Origin: a virus
Reading direction: 5' to 3' (one strand)
Length of the DNA: 25,344 bases
Virus record (IMG/VR): IMGVR_UViG_3300034166_000403
Span: 1-25,344 of that record
In this document: piece by piece, positions 3,488 through 24,136 of the stretch
Position numbering within the stretch: the stretch's first letter is position 1
Layout: each line of letters starts with the position of its first letter
Notes under the pieces: generated by a model
Database searches by the model: none
Told to the model about the DNA's origin: nothing
The model's input: the letters and a program-made list of their open reading frames with translations, nothing else
Position numbers and translations under genes: made by a program

Positions 3488-5764
3488 ATGGCAACCATCT
3501 CTCTAGGATTCAACCTCTCGGCATCTGCGGTGCAGATGGCCAGCGGCATCAATGCCGGCGTGGTGGAACTCGAGAAGTTGGGCCTGGCCGCCAAGAAGAC
3601 ACAGCGTGACGTTTCAACGCTTAAAACGATTGAGATCGGCCGAGCTTTTATTGGCGGCATCCAAGCGATTACGTCATCCATCAGCCAAGCCAACACGCTG
3701 CTGTCAGGCTTTGTCACGGAGTCCGTGTCTATTGGCGAAGAGGCGTCAAAGGCAAACGTCGTATTCGGTGAGTCAGCAAAGGCTGTGGCAGAGTTTGCCA
3801 ACAGTGCGTCTGGCATCGGCCTCTCGTCTCGGGCGGCGCTGCAGGCGACGGCATCATTCGGAAACCTGTTTACCGCAATCGGACTAAGCCAGCGGCAAGC
3901 AGCAGACTTCTCCGTTGATCTCGTCAAGCTTGCAGCAGACTTGGCGTCGTTCAACAACACCACGATTGAAGACGCCACGCTTGCTATCGGGGCTGCACTT
4001 CGTGGCGAAGCCGAGCCGATTCGCCGGTACGGCGTTCTTCTTAATGACGCCCAACTCAAGCAGGTGGCCTACGCCAGCAGTCTTGCGCAGGTGGGTGAGG
4101 ATCTAACTCCGGCCGTTAAGGCGCAGGCCGCGTACTTTGCGATTCTTAAGCAAACGGGCACAGCACAGGGCGACTTCGCACGCACATCAGACGGCCTTGC
4201 GAATCAGCAGCGCATCCTTGCGGCTGAGTGGGATAACGTCCGCGCCACGATAGGCGAGGGGCTGCAGCCTGCGTACAAAGCTTTTGTGTCTGGGCTTCGT
4301 GAATCGCTGCCTGCCATACAGGCCGCCGGACAGCAGCTTTCTACATTTATTGGGCAGATTGATTTCACTGCCCTTATTCGCTCTGTCGTGTCTAGCGTGC
4401 AATCGCTCGCTGGGTCTTTTGCGACCGTTGTCTCGTCTGCGGCTCCGCTGGCCGGAAACATCCTGCCGCTGATTGGCGGGTACTTGGCATTCATCAACCG
4501 GCAGGTTGTTGCGTCAGCCGTCTCAAACCTCAGCGGCACATTCATTGCAGCCGCTGCTTCAGCGTATAGGTTTGCTGGGGCTGCTGGCGTTGCTGCGGTT
4601 GGCGTGCGCACGCTTGCGGCATCTATTCGCGGGTTGTTGGCGTCAACCGGCATCGGAATCCTTGTAACGGTCTTGGGCTTGCTGGCAGGGCAGGTGGTTG
4701 AGTGGTCGCTGGCCACCAACACAGCCGGCCAGGAAGTTGCTACAGCCATCGACAGCCCAACGAAAGCAGCTGCCGGCTACCGTGCTGCTATCGCTGCGGC
4801 GACAAAGGAAACGCAGGACTTTGGCAAGAAGGCCAAGGACGCGCTCAAGGTGCCGACGTTCACGGCGCAGGATCTTGCCCAGGAAGCCATCGACGAAGCG
4901 AGCGCCGCTGTGAAAGCTCTGGCCAAGGAGCTTGGCGGACTGAATCGCGTGCCAGCCGCAGTGCTCGAGCGGTTCCGTGAAATCAAGGGCTTTGCCGAGG
5001 GCATCACGACAGACTCGCTCGCATTTGGTGACGCAATACAGTTGGCCAGCCGTGACGCGCAGGCGCTGACAACAGAAGTCCGCAACATCACTGACGCCAG
5101 GAAAGCTGACGCCGAAGCTGCAAAGGCTGCCGCAGACGCCGCAAGAAAGGCAGCAGAAGAGGCACGGCAGCGCACCGCAGAACTGGCCAACGCCGGGCTG
5201 AGCGACGCAGAGAAGAGTAGGCTGCAACTCAATAAGGATCTGCTGGCAATCGTCACTGAGCAGCGTGCTGCTGAAGAGGCGCTGGCTGCCGCCAAGCGTG
5301 CCGGCGATTCCAAGTCGCTTGCAGACGCTAGGCAGCGTCTCGCGTTATCGCAGGCGGCTGCGAAAGAGGCGAAGGCGCAGGACCGCGAGCGCCAGCTGCA
5401 GGCGCTCGGCGTAGACGAGAAGCTCTTGAAGCCAGCGACCACTTTGGCAGACCAGTTCAAGTCCGTACGCCAGGCATTCGACAAGAAGCTGATTGACGGT
5501 GGCGAGGCCCAGACCGCTCTCAGGAATCTTGCCAAGGAAGGCATCGACATCCGTAAGGAAATCTCACGAGAGCTTTCGCGTCCAGCTGCCTCGGCGCTCA
5601 ACGTCAATGACATCCGCACCAGCGAAGGCATTTCTGCCGTGTTCGCCCTTGGCCGCGAAGATCCAGCGATTGCCCAGCGGCGAGATCAGCTGAAGAAACT
5701 TGAGGAGATCAAGCAGGGCCTGATTGCTATCGGTGCGGCACCTGTCGGAATCTTGGGTGGCTAA
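3488..5764 (+). CDS. Tape measure protein
   Basis: At 758 residues this is the longest gene in the window. It sets tail length and is threaded inside the tail tube. The N-terminal half shows the usual tape measure pattern: helices with A-S-K-A-N-V-V-F-G-E-S, a Ser/Gly stretch, then L-A-A-D-L-A-S-F-N-N and R-G-E-A-E-P-I-R-R-Y-G, which are strongly conserved in tape measures. A hydrophobic segment lies near residues 383-405. A coiled coil rich in A, K, E and R runs near 537-570 and continues into charged helices to about 650. With the usual 1.5 angstroms per residue the tail would be roughly 110 nm. It follows the chaperone pair by four bases and overlaps the next gene by one base (TAATG). Confidence 0.9.
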   Translation: MATISLGFNLSASAVQMASGINAGVVELEKLGLAAKKTQRDVSTLKTIEIGRAFIGGIQAITSSISQANTLLSGFVTESVSIGEEASKANVVFGESAKAVAEFANSASGIGLSSRAALQATASFGNLFTAIGLSQRQAADFSVDLVKLAADLASFNNTTIEDATLAIGAALRGEAEPIRRYGVLLNDAQLKQVAYASSLAQVGEDLTPAVKAQAAYFAILKQTGTAQGDFARTSDGLANQQRILAAEWDNVRATIGEGLQPAYKAFVSGLRESLPAIQAAGQQLSTFIGQIDFTALIRSVVSSVQSLAGSFATVVSSAAPLAGNILPLIGGYLAFINRQVVASAVSNLSGTFIAAAASAYRFAGAAGVAAVGVRTLAASIRGLLASTGIGILVTVLGLLAGQVVEWSLATNTAGQEVATAIDSPTKAAAGYRAAIAAATKETQDFGKKAKDALKVPTFTAQDLAQEAIDEASAAVKALAKELGGLNRVPAAVLERFREIKGFAEGITTDSLAFGDAIQLASRDAQALTTEVRNITDARKADAEAAKAAADAARKAAEEARQRTAELANAGLSDAEKSRLQLNKDLLAIVTEQRAAEEALAAAKRAGDSKSLADARQRLALSQAAAKEAKAQDRERQLQALGVDEKLLKPATTLADQFKSVRQAFDKKLIDGGEAQTALRNLAKEGIDIRKEISRELSRPAASALNVNDIRTSEGISAVFALGREDPAIAQRRDQLKKLEEIKQGLIAIGAAPVGILGG

Positions 5765-6639
5765 TGGCCGTTATTTCATACCGCGAGGTTATCCCGCGAA
5801 CTTTCTCTCACCGTTTTGGGGAAAGCCCAACAGCGGAGCGAAAGTATGTTTGCACGCTTGATGGCCCAACTGCGACGCAAGAAATACTTGATACAGTTGG
5901 AATCTTTCACGGATCGCAGCACCCAGAATATCTATACCTGCTGTGCCTAAGCGGGGCCGTCACAGAAACGGATAGGCACCACGCCGAAATCTCGTACTCG
6001 TACGGCGTCGTGAATCAAGACGTTGCCTCATGGGATCCAAGCCCGCTGGCACGTTCTGACGTTTGGTCGTTCTCTACTGGCGGCTCTCAGGTTCCCGCGC
6101 TCATCTACTACGACGGCGCAACTAAAAAGCCGCTGGTCAATGCTGCTGGAGATTACTTTGAGGGGCTAACTGTCAACGAGGCTGAAGTTCGCTGCACCAT
6201 CAGCGGAAACCGAAACCAGTTCCCGATAGCGCTCGCTGCTGCGGTCACTAATACGGTGAACTCTGCAGGCTTTCTTGGCGGTGTGTCGCATACATGGTTC
6301 TGCTCTGGCATCAGCGGCCAGCAAACGGCCGAAGTGGTTAACGGCATCGAGATACGGTACTGGCAGGTGAGCGTGGAGCTCGTCTACCGCCAGAGCGGTC
6401 ACGATCTGCTGCTGCCTCACGTTGGCTGGCATTACGTCACTGGAAGCGGAAGCACTAAGTTTCGCACCTACGTGCGGTCTGACGAAGGCACCGACATCGC
6501 AGCAGCAAGCCCGCAACCTCTGAACTCGGACGGGTCGCAGAAATACACGGGCGGCACGTCTGGGCCTCCAGACATCCTGACTAGGCGTGTGTATCCAGAA
6601 ACAGACTTCTCCTCGTACTTTGGCAATCCGCCTTTCTAG
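5764..6639 (+). CDS. Putative distal tail / tail-tip structural protein
   Basis: I do not recognise a family in this 291-residue protein. It follows the tape measure gene with a one-base overlap, the place of distal tail and baseplate hub genes in siphophages. The sequence has moderate hydrophobicity and no signal peptide, with regions such as Y-L-Y-L-L-C-L-S-G-A-V-T-E-T-D-R and I-E-I-R-Y-W-Q-V-S-V-E-L-V-Y-R that look like beta strands of a structural protein. L-L-L-P-H-V-G-W-H-Y-V-T-G follows, and the C-terminus (P-E-T-D-F-S-S-Y-F-G) is aromatic and loose. A tail-tip role is inferred from position. It does not look like an enzyme. Confidence 0.75.
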   Translation: MAVISYREVIPRTFSHRFGESPTAERKYVCTLDGPTATQEILDTVGIFHGSQHPEYLYLLCLSGAVTETDRHHAEISYSYGVVNQDVASWDPSPLARSDVWSFSTGGSQVPALIYYDGATKKPLVNAAGDYFEGLTVNEAEVRCTISGNRNQFPIALAAAVTNTVNSAGFLGGVSHTWFCSGISGQQTAEVVNGIEIRYWQVSVELVYRQSGHDLLLPHVGWHYVTGSGSTKFRTYVRSDEGTDIAAASPQPLNSDGSQKYTGGTSGPPDILTRRVYPETDFSSYFGNPPF

Positions 6640-6641
6640 AC

Positions 6642-7118
6642 ATGCCTACAGTTCAAGATGTACGGATCACTTCTGCGACCAACGTGAGCGTCATTGTTTC
6701 GCTATGCACGGCGAACACAACCACGCTAAGCATGAGTGCGTACCCGGTTTTCTCAGCTTCAACCACCTACGGCACAAACTCATACAGGGCGAATACTCCG
6801 CTACTTCGGCTGTCTCCATCGACGGCCACAGTTGCCGTTTCAAACCCGAGCGTCTCAACGCAGACTTCTGCAGGATCAGCAACGGCCACGCTTACGTTTG
6901 GAACATCATTTGACGGCTCGACGGTGGAGTGGCAGGCAGGTGGATCTGTGCGTCGGTATCAATACATCATCCACACCTCGGGCCACACTCCTGCAACCGC
7001 ATACTCTCTTGCGGTCACCTCCAGCACGGCTGTGCTGGTGAGTGGTCGGATTGATATAGCAATCGCTGCAACGGCAGTTCAGCCAGGCATAAGCGTGTGC
7101 AGCGTGGTGGTGAGGTAG
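6642..7118 (+). CDS. Ser/Thr-rich beta-structured tail protein, unknown family
   Basis: This 158-residue protein is extremely rich in Ser, Thr, Ala and Val, with alternating patterns (A-T-V-A-V-S-N-P, S-A-T-A-T-L-T-F-G) that suggest a beta-sandwich. It has a single Trp in S-T-V-E-W-Q-A-G-G-S-V-R-R-Y, no signal peptide and no catalytic motif. The start lies two bases after the preceding stop with only a poor ribosome site, suggesting translational coupling. Between the tail-tip candidate and the RCC1-like tip protein it could be a fibre, decoration or carbohydrate-binding module. This is inferred from composition and place only. Confidence 0.7.
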   Translation: MPTVQDVRITSATNVSVIVSLCTANTTTLSMSAYPVFSASTTYGTNSYRANTPLLRLSPSTATVAVSNPSVSTQTSAGSATATLTFGTSFDGSTVEWQAGGSVRRYQYIIHTSGHTPATAYSLAVTSSTAVLVSGRIDIAIAATAVQPGISVCSVVVR

Positions 7119-7120
7119 CC

Positions 7121-7540
7121 ATGGCACAAAAGCCAGACGGAAAATCAATACGCACAGAACGAGTCACTTTCACGAAGCCAGCGGCTGAGCGTATCGCTAA
7201 GGTTGTTCGCACGGTTGAGCAGGGCGACCGTAGCGGGGCTGCATTAACTTTTGGAGCGGTGCCGCCTCAAGCGATGGCCGCATCAAGTGTCAAGTTTGCC
7301 TACCACACGGCTACCACGAACTGGTCAGTTATTGGGTTTACTGGAGCAACTACCACAAACAATACCAAAGTCATTCAGTTCGCTTTTCCAACGACAACGC
7401 CTTTTGCAACGGCACTCTGTGTCAATCATCTTTCTCCGATTCCCCTAATGACAACTGTTGCAACGGCGGCCATATCTTTGCAGCGAGTGCTCGTCCTAAA
7501 AGAAAACGGTATGTGGCGGCTTATCGGTGCTCAGTCATGA
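7121..7540 (+). CDS. Hypothetical tail-region protein
   Basis: This is a 139-residue protein of unknown family. The N-terminus is basic (R-T-E-R-V-T-F-T-K-P-A-A-E-R-I-A-K-V-V-R-T-V-E) and likely helical. The rest is Thr/Ala-rich with possible strands, including K-V-I-Q-F-A-F-P-T-T and R-V-L-V-L-K-E-N-G-M-W-R-L-I-G at the end. The ATG at 7121 has GAGG seven bases upstream and falls two bases after the previous stop; a GTG at 7097 would extend it into the previous gene and is less likely. Its stop overlaps the next start (ATGA). Basic N-terminal helices on short tail-region proteins sometimes anchor fibres, but no function can be assigned. Confidence 0.7.
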   Translation: MAQKPDGKSIRTERVTFTKPAAERIAKVVRTVEQGDRSGAALTFGAVPPQAMAASSVKFAYHTATTNWSVIGFTGATTTNNTKVIQFAFPTTTPFATALCVNHLSPIPLMTTVATAAISLQRVLVLKENGMWRLIGAQS

Positions 7541-9195
7541 GCGAGTTTCATGACTACCTGAACAACGACCCGTATGCGTGGTCTTACGTTGGAGCACAGA
7601 CAAACACCGGATGGCATTTCTGTTTTGCTCGCCTTCACAACTCCCCTACAGCGCAGTTGAATGCGTATGTATTAGGCGATGTTATTACGTTTTTTACCAA
7701 TGCTGATCTCTTCAACATTAGGCCATCCACAGAAGAGTTCCCATCTAGGCAAACCCTAACCCCGATTAACAATGTGATAGATGCTAGCAGTCTTGTAGCT
7801 CTCCGTCCCTTAGGTAGTGCTCGCTTAATAGCCATTTTATGCACATCAGAAGGTCATCTGTACGTGGTGGGTAACGAAGTCTTTGACTTTGCAAACAATT
7901 ACAAGCTCTTTGGTCTTGGCCCAGAGATCATTGACAACAGGATACAAGGAACCTACTTACAAACTGGTTCACCGCTGGGGAATAGAACAAAAACACGTCT
8001 CAGCCGGTTGACTCGCGTTCTTGGCGAAGGCGGCGACCTTGAGCAAGTCCAATTCAAGAGTGTGACATCTCATGAACATTGCCTAGCGGCGTTAGACTCC
8101 AACGGCAGTATCTGGTTTTCTGGCGATCCCTGTACGTCAGGGTTTACAGTTGAGGGCCAGTTCCCCAATGATCCTGGCGGACTACTTAGCTGGTTTCGCA
8201 AGGCAGACTTTGCATCCTACGAAGACGCTAGCGGAACAGTCACTCCGGCGCAACCGCTGGCGTTTAAAAAGATCCGCGCAGGCGGGACTAAAATACTTGC
8301 CCTTGGAGAGGACGATCACTTATACGTCTGGGGCACATTTAATCTTGGCAAAGAACTTACTTCAACTCGCCCACACCGCGTCAACGGATTTGTGGATAGT
8401 GTTGATCTTGTCGCCGGCGGGTCCGGCTACACGGCAGCTCCCTCAGTCACCGCTAGCGCACCTCAGCACCCAGACGGAACGACAGCGGTGTTTCAAGTCA
8501 CACAAGCAGGCGGTGCGGTTACAGGCATTTCGATTTCCAACCCAGGATGGGGATACACAAGCGCACCAACTCTAACGTTTTCTGGTGGCGGCGGATCCGG
8601 CGCGTCTGCTACAGCTGCTCTGTTTTCTCAAACTTGGCTAGACTGTGACGCGAGTTATGGGCCTGCAAGAACCAAGGCCTGCGCGGCTATTTCTAGCGAC
8701 GGAAAGTTGTACCTAAACAGCGCGTTTGATCTTTACGACGGAATGTCGTGGTTTTCTCCATCGTCTACCACTGGGTTTACTTCAGTATCGCTTGGAACCG
8801 ACCACGGCGTCCTACTTAAATCTGACGGATCATTCGGTTTTTGGGGAAGAGCGATTTACGTAAAGCCTGAGCTTGGATTAAGTGCTCGTGCTCCACTCAC
8901 AGTAGTCTCCCGTAGCGACATCGTGAACGCGCAAGCATTTGAGGAGGGCTATGCAATACTTACAGACGATGGGCGTGTATTTACGGCAGGCACAAATATA
9001 GACGCCGGAAGAGGATTAGAAACCTACAACGGCCAGCGTTTCGTTCCGCTGAACTCGGGTACAACAGACGGAGTAAGCAAGGCGCGGTTTTCATCTATTT
9101 TTGGAACCAGACTCGCAACCTTTCTTAACCGAATAGAGTCGCGCGACGAGTTCGGTAACCTGATTGATCCGCTGACTCCAGGGCTGCCTTCTTGA
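7537..9195 (+). CDS. RCC1-type beta-propeller protein, likely receptor-binding tail tip
   Basis: This is a 552-residue protein. Repeated units of the RCC1/ATS1 type are visible, each with a strand like H-C-L-A-A-L-D-S-N-G-S-I-W-F-S-G, I-L-A-L-G-E-D-D-H-L-Y-V-W-G, A-A-I-S-S-D-G-K-L-Y or H-G-V-L-L-K-S-D-G-S-F-G-F-W-G, separated by about 50-90 residues. Residues about 289-362 form an insert with G-G-S-G-Y-T-A-A-P-S-V and a second G-Y-T-S-A-P-T-L-T-F-S-G-G-G-G-S-G. This Gly-rich G-Y-x-x-A-P module is common in phage tail adhesins. The last gene of the tail block is where receptor-binding proteins usually lie. The gene has visibly more A and T than its neighbours, suggesting acquisition. The ATG at 7537 overlaps the previous stop; a GTG at 7513 is less likely. 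Confidence 0.75.
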   Translation: MSEFHDYLNNDPYAWSYVGAQTNTGWHFCFARLHNSPTAQLNAYVLGDVITFFTNADLFNIRPSTEEFPSRQTLTPINNVIDASSLVALRPLGSARLIAILCTSEGHLYVVGNEVFDFANNYKLFGLGPEIIDNRIQGTYLQTGSPLGNRTKTRLSRLTRVLGEGGDLEQVQFKSVTSHEHCLAALDSNGSIWFSGDPCTSGFTVEGQFPNDPGGLLSWFRKADFASYEDASGTVTPAQPLAFKKIRAGGTKILALGEDDHLYVWGTFNLGKELTSTRPHRVNGFVDSVDLVAGGSGYTAAPSVTASAPQHPDGTTAVFQVTQAGGAVTGISISNPGWGYTSAPTLTFSGGGGSGASATAALFSQTWLDCDASYGPARTKACAAISSDGKLYLNSAFDLYDGMSWFSPSSTTGFTSVSLGTDHGVLLKSDGSFGFWGRAIYVKPELGLSARAPLTVVSRSDIVNAQAFEEGYAILTDDGRVFTAGTNIDAGRGLETYNGQRFVPLNSGTTDGVSKARFSSIFGTRLATFLNRIESRDEFGNLIDPLTPGLPS

Positions 9196-9228
9196 CGTTG
9201 CTGCCATAGTCGCACGCAAGGATGCAGA

Positions 9229-9516
9229 ATGCCCGAGGATCACGTATTCACACTCAACGGCGACGAGCGATGGCTGATCAGGTTCACTGATCTCAAGGGC
9301 CAGGCGTACGGCTACACGTTTTCGCAGAAGTCCAAGCGGCCACGGATCTTGATTCACAACGGGCTCAGGGGCCGCCACAAGCTCACGATTTTGACGCACG
9401 AACTCCTCCATGCGCTTTTTCCAACCGCAAGCGAGGAACACGTCGAGCAGGCCGGCAAAGACATAAGCAAGGTTCTCTACAGCCTCGGATACCGAGAGGT
9501 GAGCGATGGGCCGTAG
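9229..9516 (+). CDS. Small HExxH zinc metallopeptidase-like protein
   Basis: The 95-residue protein has a clear H57-E58-L-L-H61 zinc motif inside the helix I-L-T-H-E-L-L-H-A-L-F-P. A following acidic helix S-E-E-H-V-E-Q-A carries E70, H71 and E73 as possible third ligands. Upstream are strands R-I-L-I-H-N and Y-G-Y-T-F, giving the compact fold seen in small phage HExxH proteins. Function could be peptidase, either of virion or host protein or of a cell wall stem, but no substrate is evident. AAGGA lies six bases before the ATG. It follows the tail block and overlaps the next gene by 11 bases. It could take part in lysis, but it lacks any cell wall-binding domain. Confidence 0.75.
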   Translation: MPEDHVFTLNGDERWLIRFTDLKGQAYGYTFSQKSKRPRILIHNGLRGRHKLTILTHELLHALFPTASEEHVEQAGKDISKVLYSLGYREVSDGP

Positions 9517-10411
9517 TGCTGGCACATTCCGCCGCAAGAACGCGAGCGACGCCTGGAACGTCACGAGCCTTGAGGGCAGCGTCACCCGCATTGACTTTAA
9601 CCAGCGTCTATGGGTGCTGCTTTCGAGTGACTGGCATTGGGACTCAGTGAAGTGCAACCGAGAGAAACTCACGGCGGATCTCACGAAAGCCCGCGAGTTA
9701 AACGCCGCAGTGCTCAGCATTGGCGACCACTTCGATGCGATGGGCGGCAAGTACGACCCGCGATCCAATGGCAAGTGGGACGTTAGGCCAGAGTTTCAAC
9801 GCGGCAACTACTACGACGACATCGTGACCCAGTGCGCCGAGTACCTCGAGCCGTACCGCGAGCAGATGGCCCTGATAACGCCGGGCAACCACGAGACGGC
9901 TGTGCGGAAGCGGATGGAGACGTGTTTGACTACGAGGCTCGTCGAGCAGCTGCGAGTGCGTGGCAGCAAGTGCAGGGCCGCGGGCTACTCGGGCTGGGTG
10001 ATGTTTCGGGCCAAGGCCGGGAAGACAAGCACGGCCCTGTACCGACTTTGGTACCACCATGGCTATGGTGGAGGTGGGCCGGTGACTCGCGGCGTCATTG
10101 ACTACAGCCGCTACCTCACAGACGTGGACGCTGACTGCGTTCACGCCGGGCACGTCCACCAGCGGACGCTGATTGAGGCCAGCCGGCAACGGCTCTCGCC
10201 AAATGGGCTCGTGCGGGTGCGGCCTATCCACCTCGTGCGAAGTGCGGCCTACAAGCAGGAATCATTAAGCGACGGCTGGGCTGTTGAGAAGGGCATGAGC
10301 AGCAGGCCGCTTGGTGGTTGGTGGATGCTGCTTCGGTGGAACACGGACCACACAGAACTGCGTGCGTCTTTCCACGACTCGCCACGCGATGACTCATCCT
10401 TTGACGAGTGA
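9506..10411 (+). CDS. Calcineurin-like metallophosphoesterase
   Basis: This 301-residue protein carries the full metallophosphoesterase motif set. S-D-W-H has D42 and H44, G-D-H lies at 73-75, G-N-H-E at 127-130, H-H-G at 184-186 and G-H-V-H at 215-218. These residues bind two metal ions and cleave phosphomono- or diesters. Phage members of the family act as nucleases or DNA-end processors (SbcD or MRE11-like), or as RNA or nucleotide phosphatases. Here no SbcC-like partner is visible. The C-terminal 40 residues are variable and acidic. The start overlaps the previous gene by 11 bases with GAGAGGTGAGC before it. The exact substrate cannot be deduced. Confidence 0.85.
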   Translation: MGRSAGTFRRKNASDAWNVTSLEGSVTRIDFNQRLWVLLSSDWHWDSVKCNREKLTADLTKARELNAAVLSIGDHFDAMGGKYDPRSNGKWDVRPEFQRGNYYDDIVTQCAEYLEPYREQMALITPGNHETAVRKRMETCLTTRLVEQLRVRGSKCRAAGYSGWVMFRAKAGKTSTALYRLWYHHGYGGGGPVTRGVIDYSRYLTDVDADCVHAGHVHQRTLIEASRQRLSPNGLVRVRPIHLVRSAAYKQESLSDGWAVEKGMSSRPLGGWWMLLRWNTDHTELRASFHDSPRDDSSFDE

Positions 10412-14959: not shown

Positions 14960-16414
14960 ATGCAGGTTTATCTTGATGACACAATCGACTCATACCGCAG
15001 GTTTCTGCGTATCAAGTCGCTGCCGCGTTACGAGATCAGCGGCCGTATGGCGTGGTTCCCAGACGAGTACGCAGGCGACATCGGCGTAGCTGCCGACGAG
15101 CCAGCCATTGCGTCATACGAGCCACGGCCTGGGCTGTTTGATTACCAGCGGGACATTGTGCGGCTGGCGGTTGAGAAGAAGCGTTACGCCATCTTCGCTG
15201 ACTGCGGGCTCGGAAAGACGCTGATGCTGCTTGAGTTTGCCCGGCACGTCCGCGAGACGGTGCCCGACAAGCCAGTGCTGATTGTGTCGCCGCTCATGGT
15301 GGTTAAGCAGACGGTGGCAGAGGCCGAGAAGTTCTACGGCGACACGCTGCCCATCGAGCAGGTGGCAGCCAAGGATCTGGCCAAGTGGATGAAGAAGCCA
15401 GGCGGCCGGCTCGGCATCACGAACTACGACGCACTGCGAGACGATACGCCAGATGGCGACCTAGCGGGACTGATTCTTGATGAATCGTCCATGCTCAAAA
15501 GCCACTATGGGAAATGGGGCCAAGTGTGCCTGCGAATTGGTGCAGGCGTTGAGTGGAAGCTGGCCTTGACTGGAACGCCGGCACCGAATGATCGCATCGA
15601 GTATGCGAACCACGCCGTATTTCTGGACGCCTTCCCAAACGTCAACTCATTTCTGGCCAAGTTCTTCATCAATCGTGGCCAGACGATGGAGCGTTGGGAA
15701 CTGAAGCCGCACGCACTACGGCCCTTCTACCGTGCTCTTTCGCACTGGTGCATCTTCCTGACAGATCCCAGCACCTACGGCTGGAAAGATAACGTCCACA
15801 ACATCCCGCCCATTCACGTTCACATTGATGACGTGCGGCTATCTGCGGAGCAGGAGAAGGCCGTACGTGCAACGACGGGCCAGCTGTTCGTCACTGAGCT
15901 AGGCGGCATCACCACCAGGGCCAAGCTCTCGCGGATGGCAAAGTGCGAAAGCAGCATTAAGCCGCAGTACATCGTGGACATGGTGCGAGAGTGGCCAACC
16001 GAAAGCACCATTATCTGGTGCCGATACAACGACGAGCAGGACATGCTGGCCAGGATGATTCCCGGGGCCGCGAGCATCGACGGCAAGACGCCGCAGGAAG
16101 AACGCCAGCGGCTCGTTGACGAGTTCAAGGCTGGCAGCATCAAGGTTCTCATCACCAAGCCGAAGATTCTGGGCTTTGGACTCAATCTGCAAATCTGCAC
16201 GCGACAGGTATTCAGCGGCTTGCAGGACTCCTACGAGGAGTATTACCAGGCCGTGAAAAGGAGCAACCGCGTCGGCTCGTGGCGTCCGCTCAACGTCCAC
16301 GTCCCCGTGACTGACATCGAACGCCCGATGGTTGAGAACGTGCTGCGTAAGGCACGTCGCGTCGAGGCCGACACCCGCGAGCAGGAGGCGATGTTCCGTG
16401 ACGCTACTGCCTGA
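14960..16414 (+). CDS. SNF2-type superfamily 2 DNA helicase/translocase
   Basis: The 484-residue protein has a Q-like segment (F-D-Y-Q-R-D-I-V near 60-67) and Walker A A-D-C-G-L-G-K-T at 80-87. Motif II D-E-S-S at 174-177 and motif III L-T-G-T-P at 203-207 follow, then motif V G-F-G-L-N-L-Q at 405-411 and motif VI Q-A-V-K-R-S-N-R-V-G-S at 430-440. It hydrolyses ATP to move along duplex DNA. The two RecA-like domains are separated by an insert with S-H-W-C-I-F-L-T. It lacks fused nuclease domains. Its end overlaps the start of a DNA methyltransferase (GTG at 16398) by 17 bases, so the two are coupled. It may act in replication, recombination or DNA modification. AAAGG precedes the ATG. Confidence 0.88.
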   Translation: MQVYLDDTIDSYRRFLRIKSLPRYEISGRMAWFPDEYAGDIGVAADEPAIASYEPRPGLFDYQRDIVRLAVEKKRYAIFADCGLGKTLMLLEFARHVRETVPDKPVLIVSPLMVVKQTVAEAEKFYGDTLPIEQVAAKDLAKWMKKPGGRLGITNYDALRDDTPDGDLAGLILDESSMLKSHYGKWGQVCLRIGAGVEWKLALTGTPAPNDRIEYANHAVFLDAFPNVNSFLAKFFINRGQTMERWELKPHALRPFYRALSHWCIFLTDPSTYGWKDNVHNIPPIHVHIDDVRLSAEQEKAVRATTGQLFVTELGGITTRAKLSRMAKCESSIKPQYIVDMVREWPTESTIIWCRYNDEQDMLARMIPGAASIDGKTPQEERQRLVDEFKAGSIKVLITKPKILGFGLNLQICTRQVFSGLQDSYEEYYQAVKRSNRVGSWRPLNVHVPVTDIERPMVENVLRKARRVEADTREQEAMFRDATA

Positions 16415-17294
16415 CCATTCACCGTACGCCATTCACCACGGCGACTGCATTCCGCACATGCTCGAGGACATGCCGCCGCATTCGGTTGATTTCTCGGTTT
16501 TTTCGCCACCGTTCCCGAGTCTGTTTTCCTACACGTCAAAGGCTGAGGACATCGGCAACAGCGAGAACATGAAAGGCGAAGCCAAGATCCACTTGTCCTA
16601 CTTCTTTCGCGGGCTTGCTCGCGTGCTGAAGCCTGGCCGGGCCGTTGTCGTTCACGTCATGCAGATCCCAAGGCTTAAGCGTTCCGGCGAAGTAGGGCTG
16701 CACGACTATCGAGGGCTCAACATCCGTCTCGGTGAGCGTGCCGGGCTCGTCTACGAATATGACTGGGTGGTGAGAAAGAATCCGCAGGCCCAAGCGATTC
16801 GCACGCGAAGCCGTGAGCTTCAGTTTGCCGGCCTTGAGAGTGACAGGGCCAAGCAGCGTGGATGCCTGCCCGACTACCTCATCAAGTTCCGGGCACCTGG
16901 CGACAACGCACTAGCCATCGACTCTGAAGGCGACGTGTCGAGGAACGAGTGGATTGACTGGGCCGAATGCTGCTGGAGTGACATCCGCGAGACGAACACG
17001 CTGAACGTAAAAGAGGCCCGCAGCGAAGAGGATACGAAGCACATCTGCCCGCTGCAGCTGGACGTGATTGACAGGCTGGTGAGGCTGTACAGCAACCCCG
17101 GTGAGGTTGTCTTTTCGCCTTTCACTGGCATTGGCAGTGAGGGATACGTGGCACTTCAGCGTGGCCGCAGGTTCTACGGATGCGAGCTCAAGCCCGAGTA
17201 CCACGCCCAGGCGTTGAAGAATCTGGCCAAGGCTGAGCGAACGCACCAAGCGAATAGCAAAACTCTCTTTGACACACAAGAGGCCGTCGCTTGA
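16398..17294 (+). CDS. DNA methyltransferase, beta-class N4/N6 amino type
   Basis: This is a 298-residue product. Motif IV is S-P-P-F at 36-39 and motif I is P-F-T-G-I-G-S at 241-247. This order (IV before I) is that of beta-class amino methyltransferases; S-P-P-[FY] often marks N4-cytosine enzymes, but N6-adenine activity is possible. It begins with H-H-G-D-C near 13-17 and has a likely target-recognition region at about 90-210. I prefer the GTG at 16398, since AGGAGG lies nine bases upstream; an ATG at 16332 is deep inside the helicase gene. No restriction enzyme is adjacent. It probably protects phage DNA or marks it for control. Confidence 0.88.
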   Translation: MTLLPDHSPYAIHHGDCIPHMLEDMPPHSVDFSVFSPPFPSLFSYTSKAEDIGNSENMKGEAKIHLSYFFRGLARVLKPGRAVVVHVMQIPRLKRSGEVGLHDYRGLNIRLGERAGLVYEYDWVVRKNPQAQAIRTRSRELQFAGLESDRAKQRGCLPDYLIKFRAPGDNALAIDSEGDVSRNEWIDWAECCWSDIRETNTLNVKEARSEEDTKHICPLQLDVIDRLVRLYSNPGEVVFSPFTGIGSEGYVALQRGRRFYGCELKPEYHAQALKNLAKAERTHQANSKTLFDTQEAVA

Positions 17295-17345
17295 CGAGTG
17301 TGGCACGGTGGCCACTAGTGAACGACACGAAGCAAGGAGGCATGT

Positions 17346-18560
17346 ATGCCAGCGACAGCGACCAAGAAACTTAAGACCCCATATGAAAACCTTCTGCCGC
17401 CGCTCAAGACATCCGAGCGAGAGGCTCTTGCTGCGGACATCAAGGCCAATGGGGTGCTGCACCCGGTGGTGATCGACGAGGATGGCAACATCCTTGACGG
17501 GCACCATCGCTACGCCATCGACACCAACGCGCCGACGAGGACCGTCGAAGGGCTAAGCGACGAGGAGAAGCAGGCGTACACGATAAGGGCAAACCTGGCC
17601 CGGCGCAACTTGTCGCCAGATCAGGCGAGGGATGTTGCTAAGACTCAGCGAGCCATTGCAAAGAAGCTGAGAGAGTCCGACCCGAAGGCGTGGACGCTAA
17701 AGCGTGTGGCGGCTTTGCTTGGAGTTGCTGTTCAGACGGTCTCATCGTGGTTTAGTAACGATTCCAGCGATGGAAATACTACTAAAGTCCCCACGCCGGA
17801 CGCTCGCGTCAAACTTAACACTGCTGCTAAGGAAGAAGTCGTTGCCCGCCTTGAGGCTGGCGAGACGCAGCAGCAAATTGCAGCCGACTTCGGTGTGTGC
17901 CAGAAGACCGTCAGCAACATTGGAAAAAAGGCAGACGAGATCCACAGCCGCGACGATGACAAAGCCCGCAAAACAGCACATCTAAAAACCAGCAAGTTTG
18001 ACGTACGTCGTGGCGACTTTCGCCAGGTGCTCGCTGACGTTAGCAACGTGTCCCTTGTGCTGACAGATCCGCCATACCCGAAGGAGTTTCTTCCGCTCTG
18101 GGAAGACCTTAGCAAGTGGGCTGCCGGAGCGTTGGCCGACGACGGTTTGCTGGTTGCATACAGCGGCCAAATGTATCTGCCGCAGGTGCTCGAGCTGCTG
18201 GGTAAGCATCTCGATTTCTGGTGGTGCGGTGCTGTCGTTCACAAGGGTAGCGGCAACCTGACTCCGCTTGGCCACCCAGTTCGCAAGGTGGTCAACAAGT
18301 GGAAGCCTCTGGTGATGTTTATGAAGCGGGGCGGCGTTGGATTCCAGCGTTCGTTTAGCGACCTGATTGACGGCGCAGGAAAGCAGAAGAGCGAACACAA
18401 CTGGCAGCAGCATGAGGCTGAGGCAGCCATGCTGATTAAGGCTTTCACGAAGAAGGGCGAGTTAGTCGTAGACCCTTTTGCAGGATCAGGCGGGTTTTGC
18501 AAGGCAGCACACGATCTTGAACGCATCGCCGTTGGTGCAGAAATCTTGGAGGCGTCATGA
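17346..18560 (+). CDS. ParB-like / double HTH / DNA methyltransferase fusion
   Basis: The 404-residue protein joins three parts. Residues 10-85 form a ParB N-terminal domain with D-G-H-H-R-Y-A (51-57). Two HTH motifs follow at about 116-136 (W-T-L-K-R-V-A-A-L-L-G-V) and 162-193 (Q-Q-I-A-A-D-F-G-V-C-Q-K-T-V). Residues 215-400 form a beta-class methyltransferase with D-P-P-Y at 241-244 and D-P-F-A-G-S-G at 376-382. D-P-P-Y suggests N6-adenine. AAGGAGG is five bases before the ATG. The ParB part may bind DNA or nucleotides and the HTHs may target sites; function as a regulator plus modifier is inferred. The next gene starts in its stop (ATGA). Such ParB-methyltransferase fusions occur in phages; the double HTH is less usual. 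Confidence 0.85.
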   Translation: MPATATKKLKTPYENLLPPLKTSEREALAADIKANGVLHPVVIDEDGNILDGHHRYAIDTNAPTRTVEGLSDEEKQAYTIRANLARRNLSPDQARDVAKTQRAIAKKLRESDPKAWTLKRVAALLGVAVQTVSSWFSNDSSDGNTTKVPTPDARVKLNTAAKEEVVARLEAGETQQQIAADFGVCQKTVSNIGKKADEIHSRDDDKARKTAHLKTSKFDVRRGDFRQVLADVSNVSLVLTDPPYPKEFLPLWEDLSKWAAGALADDGLLVAYSGQMYLPQVLELLGKHLDFWWCGAVVHKGSGNLTPLGHPVRKVVNKWKPLVMFMKRGGVGFQRSFSDLIDGAGKQKSEHNWQQHEAEAAMLIKAFTKKGELVVDPFAGSGGFCKAAHDLERIAVGAEILEAS

Positions 18561-21534: not shown

Positions 21535-21905
21535 AAGCCAGCGAAGCATCACGCAACCACTCGCGGGCTGATCTCGTGCTGCTCCACCAACTGTGGGCGG
21601 AAGGCGTTACCTCGTCAGAGATTGCCAAGCGGTTTGGCGTGGCTTATTCCACCGTTACGAAGTGGGCACAGCGGTACAAACTGCCACGCAGGACGCTGCA
21701 CCCAGCTGACGAGCCCGAAGCGCCGACGCCCGAGGACGATGCCGCATCGCTAGGCGGGCTGGCGTTGTCGCCGTGGGTTGAGGAGCGGGCTAGGGTGGTC
21801 AGGGAAAAGCACTACGACAGCAGACGGCGAGAAGAGCCATGCAACACGCAAAGCAAGGTTAGCAAGTGGCGTCACGGGATCTGCCAGCCAAGAGGTGTGG
21901 CGTGA
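21531..21905 (+). CDS. GcrA-like helix-turn-helix DNA-binding protein
   Basis: This is a 124-residue protein. Residues about 19-53 form an HTH: L-H-Q-L-W-A-E-G-V-T-S-S-E-I-A-K-R-F-G-V, then Y-S-T-V-T-K-W-A-Q-R-Y-K-L-P-R-R. The W-x-E-G and L-P-R-R ends resemble GcrA-type domains. An acidic Pro-rich linker (D-E-P-E-A-P-T-P-E-D-D) follows, then a basic C-terminal S-P-W-V-E-E-R-A-R-V-V-R-E. It starts in the dnaN stop (ATGA). A late-gene or early-gene transcription regulator is likely. The HTH is similar in layout to the one at 24990. Confidence 0.75.
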   Translation: MKASEASRNHSRADLVLLHQLWAEGVTSSEIAKRFGVAYSTVTKWAQRYKLPRRTLHPADEPEAPTPEDDAASLGGLALSPWVEERARVVREKHYDSRRREEPCNTQSKVSKWRHGICQPRGVA

Positions 21906-21946
21906 CAGAACGCACAGGATCAGCGGCAGCGATGAAAGGACTCACC

Positions 21947-22384
21947 ATGCCGAAAGACGATGCAACGCTGTCCGCTGCATCCGCTGGTTCTGCCTGCTTT
22001 GAGTGCGGCGGTCTTGCCGACGTTGAGCATCACGTTGTTCCGAGATCACGAGGCGGAACGAAGACGGTGCGGCTGTGCGAGGATTGCCACGGCAAGGCGC
22101 ACGGAAGGGCGATGACCACGAACGCCCTCACGCGACAGGCTCTTGCTCGCAAGCGGTCGAACGGCGAGCGAACCGGGCAGGTGCCATTTGGGTTTGACCT
22201 CGCCAGCGATGGCGTGACGCTGATTCCCAACGCCGGCGAGCAGGAGTCATGGGGTGTTATTCGGGGGCTGCGAACACAGGGCATGACCCTTCGCGAAATC
22301 GCGGCCGAGATGAATCGCCGAGGCATTCGAACGAAAAAAGGCGGCCCTTGGGTTCATTCAACCATCCAGAGGCTTGTCGGCTGA
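21947..22384 (+). CDS. HNH-like protein fused to a serine-recombinase accessory domain
   Basis: The 145-residue protein has an HNH-like zinc motif: C17-x-x-C20, E27-H-H29, G-G, L-C44-x-x-C47-H48-x-x-x-H52. The Asn expected five residues before C44 is Lys39, so nuclease activity is uncertain. From about 73 it has R-T-G-Q-V-P-F-G-F, then L-I-P-N-A-G-E-Q, L-R-T-Q-G-M-T-L-R-E-I-A-A-E-M-N-R-R-G-I and G-P-W-V-H-S-T-I-Q-R-L. This is the Recombinase domain of large serine recombinases, without their catalytic domain. I prefer the ATG at 21947 with AAAGGA six bases upstream; a GTG at 21902 overlapping the preceding stop is possible. Confidence 0.78.
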   Translation: MPKDDATLSAASAGSACFECGGLADVEHHVVPRSRGGTKTVRLCEDCHGKAHGRAMTTNALTRQALARKRSNGERTGQVPFGFDLASDGVTLIPNAGEQESWGVIRGLRTQGMTLREIAAEMNRRGIRTKKGGPWVHSTIQRLVG

Positions 22385-22970: not shown

Positions 22971-23369
22971 TTGGCCGTCACGTTCACCGTCGCAGGGCAG
23001 CCCGTCCCACAGCCGAGGCCGCGAGTCTCAACTGCGGGCGGGTTTGCCCGTGCCTACGTGCCAGGGAAGCACCCGGTGCATGCGTACCGCGAGGCTATCG
23101 CAGCAGCTGCTCGAGCGGCCGGGCTCACGACAACCGGCGAGGTGCTGAACGTGGTGATTGACGCAGTGTTTGAGCGGCCAAAGTCGCACATGAACAAAGC
23201 AGGCGTGAAGAGCACGGCCGCGAAGCTCCCGCGCCCCGACGTGGACAACTTGGCCAAGGCCGTGCTCGACGCGCTGCAGGACGTGATGGGCGATGACTCG
23301 CTAGTAGGGCGATTGGTGGTGGAAAAGTCATATGGCCAGGAGGCACGGACTACCGTGCGAATCTCGTGA
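22971..23369 (+). CDS. rusA: RusA-family Holliday junction resolvase
   Basis: The 132-residue protein opens with F-T-V-A-G-Q-P-V-P-Q-P-R-P-R and has a helix A-Y-R-E-A-I-A-A-A-A-R-A. A strand V-V-I-D-A-V-F-E-R-P-K follows, then the signature R-P-D-V-D-N-L-A-K-A-V-L-D-A-L and G-D-D-S-L-V. The D-x-D-N-x-x-K and the D-D pair are the catalytic acidic residues. RusA cuts Holliday junctions and branched phage replication intermediates. The start is a TTG three bases after the preceding stop, since no ATG or GTG in frame gives the conserved N-terminus. Its stop overlaps the next GTG start. Confidence 0.9.
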   Translation: MAVTFTVAGQPVPQPRPRVSTAGGFARAYVPGKHPVHAYREAIAAAARAAGLTTTGEVLNVVIDAVFERPKSHMNKAGVKSTAAKLPRPDVDNLAKAVLDALQDVMGDDSLVGRLVVEKSYGQEARTTVRIS

Positions 23370-24136
23370 GCACTGTGGCCGTAGTCATCCCTACGTGGAA
23401 CATGGCCAACACACTTGGTCGGGCTCTTGGCTCGGCGTGCGTTGGCGGCGCCGATGAGATTGTCGTGGTGGACGATGCCAGCACTGACGCCACTTACAGC
23501 GTCGTGCAGCAATGGCAGAAGAGCCATCCGCATGTGCAGTACGTGCGGCATCCTGAGAAATCGAAGGATCACAACGCAGCCCAGCGTGATGTGTGGCTAT
23601 CGCTAAAAAGCAATCACGTCATCGGCTTGGCTGCCGATGACTGGCTTTACCCGTCTGCCGTTGAAGCCGTACGCCGCAATGCTCATTCGCCTGTGGTGTT
23701 CACGGACGCAGACGCGTTTGACGATCAAGGCCGATTCATTCACTGGCACATGAGCGAGTTCTACGGCTACAAGTCCGCCCAAGAGGTGCGTTATCGAGTG
23801 CGTGGGCCTGCCAATTTGATTGAGAGCGGCATTGGCTCGTCACTACGCCGAGATATGGTGCAGTGGCTGTGGATGATGAAGTGGGATTCGCTTGGCCCGC
23901 TCATGGATAGCGTCGGCTATGGCACCATTGCGTGCCTGTTCGGTGCCACCTACGTGCAATGCAAGGGTGCTGGGCTCACAGTGCGCGAGCGAAGTTACGG
24001 AAGAAATCCCGACTGGACTGAGAACGATTACCGCACGATGGGCATGAAAGCTGTGGCGTGGATGGACTACGCGGGGCTCGACCGCGAGACCATTAAGGCG
24101 ATGGCCCGCAAGCGTTGCTATGTGGAGGTGGCATGA
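23366..24136 (+). CDS. Family 2 glycosyltransferase
   Basis: The 256-residue protein has a GT-A fold: V-A-V-V-I-P-T-W-N (residues 4-12), E-I-V-V-V-D-D-A-S-T-D (31-41), then A-A-D-D-W (about 89-93) with the D-x-D-like metal site and F-T-D-A-D-A-F-D. The second half has an R-x-D-M-V-Q-W segment and Y-G-T-I-A-C, as in family 2 enzymes. It transfers an activated sugar to an unknown acceptor. The GTG start overlaps the RusA stop. It forms a pair with the next glycosyltransferase. The acceptor may be host surface glycan, virion protein or modified DNA; none is shown. Confidence 0.85.
   Translation: MSTVAVVIPTWNMANTLGRALGSACVGGADEIVVVDDASTDATYSVVQQWQKSHPHVQYVRHPEKSKDHNAAQRDVWLSLKSNHVIGLAADDWLYPSAVEAVRRNAHSPVVFTDADAFDDQGRFIHWHMSEFYGYKSAQEVRYRVRGPANLIESGIGSSLRRDMVQWLWMMKWDSLGPLMDSVGYGTIACLFGATYVQCKGAGLTVRERSYGRNPDWTENDYRTMGMKAVAWMDYAGLDRETIKAMARKRCYVEVA

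Follow-up and report, generated by a model that had tools for sequence, protein, structure and literature searches.

An RCC1-type beta-propeller as a proposed exchangeable tail-tip protein, paired with an adaptor domain, in an uncultured and probably temperate phage

The window analyzed here is a virus record of 25,344 bases, taken at its full length. Its left part is a neck and tail block of the siphovirus type, in which the genes follow the order head closure, neck, tail terminator, tail assembly chaperone, tape measure, g291, g158, g147 and a gene for an RCC1-type protein. The tail-tip-like position that a sequence-only reading had assigned to the RCC1 gene is borne out, as this gene is the last of the tail block. 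The right part of the window holds a small HEXXH protein, a metallophosphoesterase and a minus-strand integrase, and then RecT, a helicase, a methyltransferase and replication and sliding-clamp genes. Because an integrase gene is present in the window, the phage, which is uncultured, is probably temperate. A megablast search of the window against deposited phage records gave no match, and a near relative is absent among deposited phages. Annotation searches for defence genes and for NCBIfam families returned none. The features on which the analysis turns are the following.

3488..5764, plus strand: tail tape measure protein of 758 aa, which anchors the tail block (PHROG 1535 tape measure, E 2.3e-23; tblastn matches to actinophage tape measure proteins).
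5764..6639, plus strand: g291, a conserved tail protein right after the tape measure, predicted to be mostly beta (44-100% identity in relatives).
6642..7118, plus strand: g158, a small protein (46-97% identical in nearer relatives; distant ones without a match).
7121..7258, plus strand: N-terminal part of g147 (MAQKPDGK..VTFTKPAAERIAKVVR..E.GDR..LTFG), proposed as the docking end of an adaptor (conserved in all relatives; 61-86% identical whatever the slot content).
7259..7540, plus strand: C-terminal domain of g147, RCC1-matched type, forming the left side of the exchanged cassette (homologues confined to RCC1-carrying phages; codon z -4.9).
7537..9195, plus strand: RCC1-type beta-propeller of 552 aa, the proposed receptor-binding tail-tip protein (Pfam, PDB sequence, AlphaFold, Foldseek).
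9229..9516, plus strand: small HEXXH (IrrE/M78-like) protein, the first conserved gene past the slot and its right boundary (74-95% identity in sisters whose slots differ in content; weak Pfam M78 match, E 0.013).
9506..10411, plus strand: metallophosphoesterase on the right flank of the slot (PHROG 7339, E 1e-11; sisters 95-99% identical).

The AlphaFold model of g291 (pLDDT 76) has no significant match in the PDB and no solved relative, so the RCC1 gene is placed at the tail tip by gene order only. A tail-tip fold for g291 was considered and dropped for the same lack of a match.

RCC1 propellers are best known as protein-interaction domains. The RCC1 gene of the window starts with an ATG at 7537 that overlaps the stop of the upstream g147 (ATGA) and ends with a stop at 9195. 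Its product matches the Pfam RCC1-like domain PF25390 with an E of 3.2e-13, yet under the gathering score of 150, and passes the gathering score of RCC1_2 (31.2 bits against 22). As a single sequence it finds human RCC1 in phmmer (E 8e-6), and a profile of its family finds the RLD of HERC2 among PDB sequences (E 1e-12). The best PDB matches of its AlphaFold model in Foldseek are the RCC1 propellers of RPGR, RCC1, HERC2 and UVR8 (best E 7e-14), with a TM (target) of about 0.4-0.6 to RCC1-like domains, and the viral structure matches include several uncultured-phage proteins named RCC1. The RCC1-type propeller suggested from the sequence alone is thereby confirmed by Pfam, by PDB sequence search and by the predicted fold. 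Parts of the propeller also give weak profile matches to the phage RCC1 virion families PHROG 4219, 7220 and 16766 (E 0.014-0.09).

The AlphaFold model was built from six homologues, a shallow alignment, and has a mean pLDDT of 62 and a pTM of 0.71. Its quality is good at about residues 160-395 (mainly blades 3-5 and the insert described below); residues 1-78 have a pLDDT <50, and the end is poor in parts. Seven RCC1 signatures can be read by eye, at residues 25-47, 94-114, 178-198, 249-269, 377-397, 419-439 and 467-487, together with a degenerate eighth, C-terminal signature at residues 520-541. The protein is consistent with a seven-bladed ring. Since the model is confident mainly for blades 3-5, this blade count leans partly on the sequence signatures.

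One feature lies within the propeller itself.

8392..8628, plus strand: Gly-rich insert, residues 286-364, between blades 4 and 5 (PHROG tail and virion structural families, E down to 7e-15; same site in other full-length relatives).

The insert carries a GYTAAP motif at residues 297-302 (window 8425-8442) and a GYTSAP motif at residues 339-344 (window 8551-8568), and its region of the AlphaFold model has a pLDDT of about 80-95. The earlier description of an insert between blades with two GYTxAP modules is correct in all but its length, which was given as 74 residues and measures 79 aa. Homologues of the insert occur in many phage structural proteins, including tail and baseplate proteins of T4-like cyanophages, where the matches fall in N-terminal or fibre regions (tblastn E ~1e-5). 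The window insert is homologous to a GSGYTSAP module in tail fibre and baseplate proteins of these cyanophages, for example Sf-FP1 and the S-RSM4 tail fibre-like protein. The cyanophage module lies outside a propeller, either close to the N terminus or within long fibres, while that of the window forms a loop between blades 4 and 5.

The insert had also been taken as a sign of a mobile adhesin module. As a recent add-on it does not hold up, since it has the same place in the other full-length relatives and is common in phage structural proteins; a recent insertion of the module into the propeller was rejected because the position is identical in those relatives. The first motif is sometimes degraded in them, but the Gly-rich stretch stands at one equivalent site throughout, which indicates that the insert is part of the ancestral architecture. 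It may serve as a structural or attachment loop, or as an accessory binding surface, belonging to the ancestral protein.

About 100 IMG/VR relatives were collected via g291 and g147, and all counts of relatives refer to the matches listed. In most relatives the gene after g147 varies. The occupant of this slot is an RCC1 propeller in some, and elsewhere one of many kinds of Cys-rich protein or a Cys-rich protein of 800 aa. The slot is filled in the informative relatives. The neck and tail DNA of the sisters L019, L065 and L090 is 92-98% identical to that of the window, and most of those proteins of a fourth sister, L026, are 94-100% identical. The slots of these four nevertheless contain at least three different Cys-rich proteins, unrelated to the propeller. 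In blastn, the four sisters are 81-84% identical to the window up to ~6435 and 80-89% identical from 9230 onward, and between these positions similarity is limited to short stretches, chiefly ~110 bp at the 5' end of g147. Position 6435 was rejected as the left boundary of the exchanged block because g291 is homologous to its end (61-63%); the protein comparison shows a sharp left junction inside g147.

7229..9230, no strand: exchanged region (blastn similarity to the sisters ends at ~7228-7240 and resumes at 9230-9235).

Exchange is also seen between RCC1 proteins. A stretch of 4978 bp that runs up to about codon 120 of g147 is 98.96% identical between the relatives L105 and L189. Beyond it, their RCC1 proteins are only 31% identical; 87% DNA identity returns just before the next gene. 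The boundaries of the exchanged region in conserved genes would fit recombination between phages. No convincing repeats were found in 6400-9400, and no recombinase gene lies within the cassette, which thus lacks the marks of a self-mobile genetic element, a recombinase of its own or flanking long terminal repeats. The mobile module proposed from the sequence alone is therefore upheld as far as exchange is concerned, by the unrelated slot genes of the sisters and by L105 and L189. The unit is not the named gene alone, however, but includes the C-terminal part of g147 (7259-7540). A second variable block was seen in the middle of the tape measure gene, at window 3637-4436, which has no blastn similarity to sisters that are 92-98% identical just upstream.

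The Cys-rich slot proteins (L009, L019, L026, L037, L058 and others) have a CCxCC near the N terminus and are very diverse. Those scanned had no PHROG match, and three of them had no Pfam match. They would be the alternative tip proteins, and they may form a family. In many relatives the Cys-rich slot protein is followed by a second small gene of about 90-160 aa with a CGC..RQ..LN-like ending. This gene is absent from the window, and L187 has both the second small gene and an RCC1 protein. Examples are:

L019:8879-9154, second small gene.
L026:9816-10103, second small gene.
L090:10383-10658, second small gene.
L007:12407-12697, second small gene.

Two further slot proteins, those of L088 and L092, are probably RCC1 proteins but were not counted as clear cases (RCC1_2 E 0.04 and 0.009, respectively). 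A profile of the clear RCC1 members matches L092 chiefly at the insert, and the hhalign comparison of alignment A3 with L088 was discarded as circular, L088 being a row of A3.

The two parts of g147 are distributed differently among the relatives. The first 45 residues are conserved in all relatives compared, whereas the C-terminal domain is 39-71% identical among RCC1-carrying phages and was not found in others. When the C-terminal domain was used as the sole query, with no RCC1 sequence, the contigs among the matches listed had an RCC1 gene directly downstream in every case (8/8), and three of the eight were new. Some of these contigs share backbones (two are window-type; L105, L188 and L189 are another such group), which leaves about five independent lineages. 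In L028 and L029 the domain is 68-71% identical even though just 13% of the length of the tape measure is matched and g285 is 27-28% identical, which indicates spread across lineages. On these comparisons, the C-terminal domain of g147 travels with the propeller.

The base composition of the slot was compared with that of the surrounding genes. The RCC1 gene does have the lower GC content that had been noticed by eye, 0.508 compared with 0.577 upstream and 0.608 downstream. Its GC3 is 0.47, while that of the intact flanking tail and downstream genes is 0.57-0.77 and that of both g147 parts is 0.46-0.47. Likewise, its synonymous codon usage deviates from that of the tail block (z = -12.1), as does that of the g147 C-terminal part (z = -4.9); the conserved N-terminal part of g147 has a z of -1.7, and the other tail-block and downstream genes are within about +/-3. 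The two outcomes named beforehand as refuting the first reading, a fold other than a propeller and a composition equal to that of the tail block, were thus not seen. The low GC is not, however, specific to a foreign RCC1 gene, because almost every unrelated slot gene also has a GC3 lower than that of g291 in its own phage. The mean difference in GC3 from g291 is -0.175 for 49 slot genes labelled non-RCC1, a set that contains one unlabelled window-type gene copy without a change in the picture, and the five RCC1 slot genes lie 0.19 to 0.26 below. Low GC thus characterises the slot and not RCC1 genes in particular, and as evidence for foreign origin it is weakened. Low GC and deviating codon usage are also typical of cargo genes, and the RCC1 gene could be a non-virion moron placed after the tail genes by chance. 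This is scarcely credible, given that the RCC1 start codon overlaps the stop of the adaptor, that the C-terminal domain of the adaptor is exchanged together with the RCC1 gene and that the slot is filled in informative relatives.

It is instead likely that the RCC1 propeller is a distal host-recognition protein, exchangeable as a cassette with a matched g147 adaptor. Two traits of receptor-binding proteins are found in the RCC1 gene, which is the most distal gene of the tail block and is exchanged between otherwise near-identical phages. Carried in the virion, the gene product would form the tip of a long-tailed, probably temperate phage and would have a seven-bladed beta-propeller of the RCC1 type as its scaffold. 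Its adaptor would be g147, whose conserved first ~45 residues may dock on a common tail tip made of g291 and its neighbours and whose C-terminal domain may carry a single matching kind of tip protein. Together with the tip gene, this C-terminal domain would then make up a cassette that phages exchange by recombination, the conserved 5' end of the adaptor gene serving for this at its left side and the conserved M78-like gene at its right. Such a swap could replace an RCC1 propeller with a Cys-rich tip protein, or one RCC1 allele with another, and the phage would come to recognise a different surface structure, with a possible change in host range. Swapping of tail-tip genes between phages is common.

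In the same slot of L105 (7698-10613), the homologue joins an RCC1 propeller to three downstream FN3 domains, which match the central tail fibre J family (PHROG 31, E 6e-16). These domains give added support for a tail role of the slot proteins. The match to the tail fibre J family is confined to the FN3 part of L105, and the window protein is without FN3 domains.

The exchange of a terminal structural gene and its low similarity would also be expected if the RCC1 protein were an accessory adhesin or decoration of the virion, for instance for mucus, particles or biofilm matrix, and not a specific receptor-binding protein. The presence of the Gly-rich module in many kinds of phage structural proteins points the same way. 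However, there is no other large variable gene after the tape measure, an evident receptor-binding protein would otherwise be missing from the block, and the slot is filled in informative relatives, all of which make an accessory function unlikely. Exchange is likewise expected of an enzyme that acts on the host envelope, a depolymerase or peptidase on a propeller scaffold, and some phage propeller tail proteins, such as the endosialidases named in PMC4901313, are enzymes. The window protein, in contrast, resembles RCC1 propellers, which are best known as protein-interaction domains, and no enzyme family was matched in Pfam, NCBIfam or PHROGs, so that an enzymatic role appears very unlikely.

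The sole published proposal found for the role of phage RCC1 proteins is DNA organisation, put forward for the RCC1-like proteins of the jumbo coliphage phAPEC6 from the known interaction of eukaryotic RCC1 with DNA (PMC7247149), and PHROGs places RCC1 families under DNA metabolism. By analogy, the window protein could be an internal DNA-organising or ejected virion protein. Against this, its gene follows the tape measure and is not among the head genes, the sisters have unrelated Cys-rich proteins in its place, and the same-position homologue of L105 carries tail-fibre-type FN3 domains. Moreover, the RCC1 fold alone is no proof of DNA binding, as it is shared by UVR8 and the HERC2 domains, and RCC1 sensu stricto functions in Ran exchange and nucleosome binding, with neither Ran nor nucleosomes in the presumed bacterial setting of the window. 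Of the rivals, a DNA-organising role, which we regard as highly improbable, is the hardest to reconcile with a slot that closes a tail block and can hold Cys-rich proteins instead.

RCC1-type virion proteins, propeller receptor-binding proteins and the exchange of tail-tip genes are each already known. RCC1-like proteins of phages GAP32 and W70 have been found in virions by mass spectrometry (PMC5259590; PMC11370258). These proteins and those of phAPEC6 (PHROG 4219) are RCC1-type phage proteins like that of the window, but they belong to jumbo phages and Vequintavirinae, large myoviruses of which many have several RCC1 copies per genome (GAP32 has one). The window phage, in contrast, encodes just one such protein, whose gene closes a siphovirus-like tail block and is accompanied by that of a matched adaptor. 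The established propeller receptor-binding protein is the five-bladed Gp45 of phi11 (PMC4901313), which resembles the role proposed here in that it is built on a propeller, sits at the tail tip of a temperate siphophage and binds the receptor. Gp45 has five non-RCC1 blades, a long trimeric helical stem and a C-terminal tower, whereas the window protein has seven RCC1 signatures and a predicted N-terminal helix of 9 residues, in a low-confidence stretch, and is not of the phi11 type. The propellers of phiKZ gp131C, which is seven-bladed, and PRD1 P2 are cited in the same source as proposed receptor-binding domains at the virion periphery (PMC4901313). P2, from a tectivirus, has a distorted propeller of five blades, and the function of gp131C is putative; both are likened to the window protein by description. 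Within a literature coverage that is incomplete, no report was found in which an RCC1 propeller serves as an exchangeable tip alongside a matched adaptor, and it is this combination that appears to be new.

A wider proposal, which we offer tentatively and hold to be possible but somewhat doubtful, is that RCC1-type propellers make up a general class of phage receptor-binding heads that can be exchanged, every one matched by an adaptor C-terminal domain of its own, and that one backbone can carry unrelated binding folds, namely RCC1 propellers, Cys-rich proteins and FN3 fibres. If so, the RCC1 proteins of jumbo phages, which are now filed under DNA condensation, would be adhesins too. The near-identical backbones that differ in the RCC1 or non-RCC1 protein at the end of the tail block amount to a natural experiment, through which the role of phage RCC1 proteins becomes directly testable. 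Additionally, the adaptor and tip pairs may point to a natural plug system for host recognition.

Genome contigs were also scanned for a host. No relative of g147 was found in them, and the sole match of g291 was distant (33%), in contig L182, which is binned to Planctomycetota. This contig also has a distant g147 relative and a Cys-rich slot protein (L182:9995-12325), and it is the only hint of a host.

Several other genes of the window deserve mention. A family 2 glycosyltransferase is encoded at 23366-24136 (Pfam E 7e-19; the PHROG match is weak and GtrB-like). Carried by a phage that is probably temperate, it could alter a host surface glycan and exclude further infection. At 21866-22384, an HNH motif is followed by the truncated start of a serine recombinase domain, which resembles a fragment or fusion. 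Lastly, two neighbouring genes at 16332-18560 each match parts of N6/N4 DNA methylases, the methylase part of the second standing behind ParB-like and helix-turn-helix parts, and the pair is perhaps a split or duplicated methylase.
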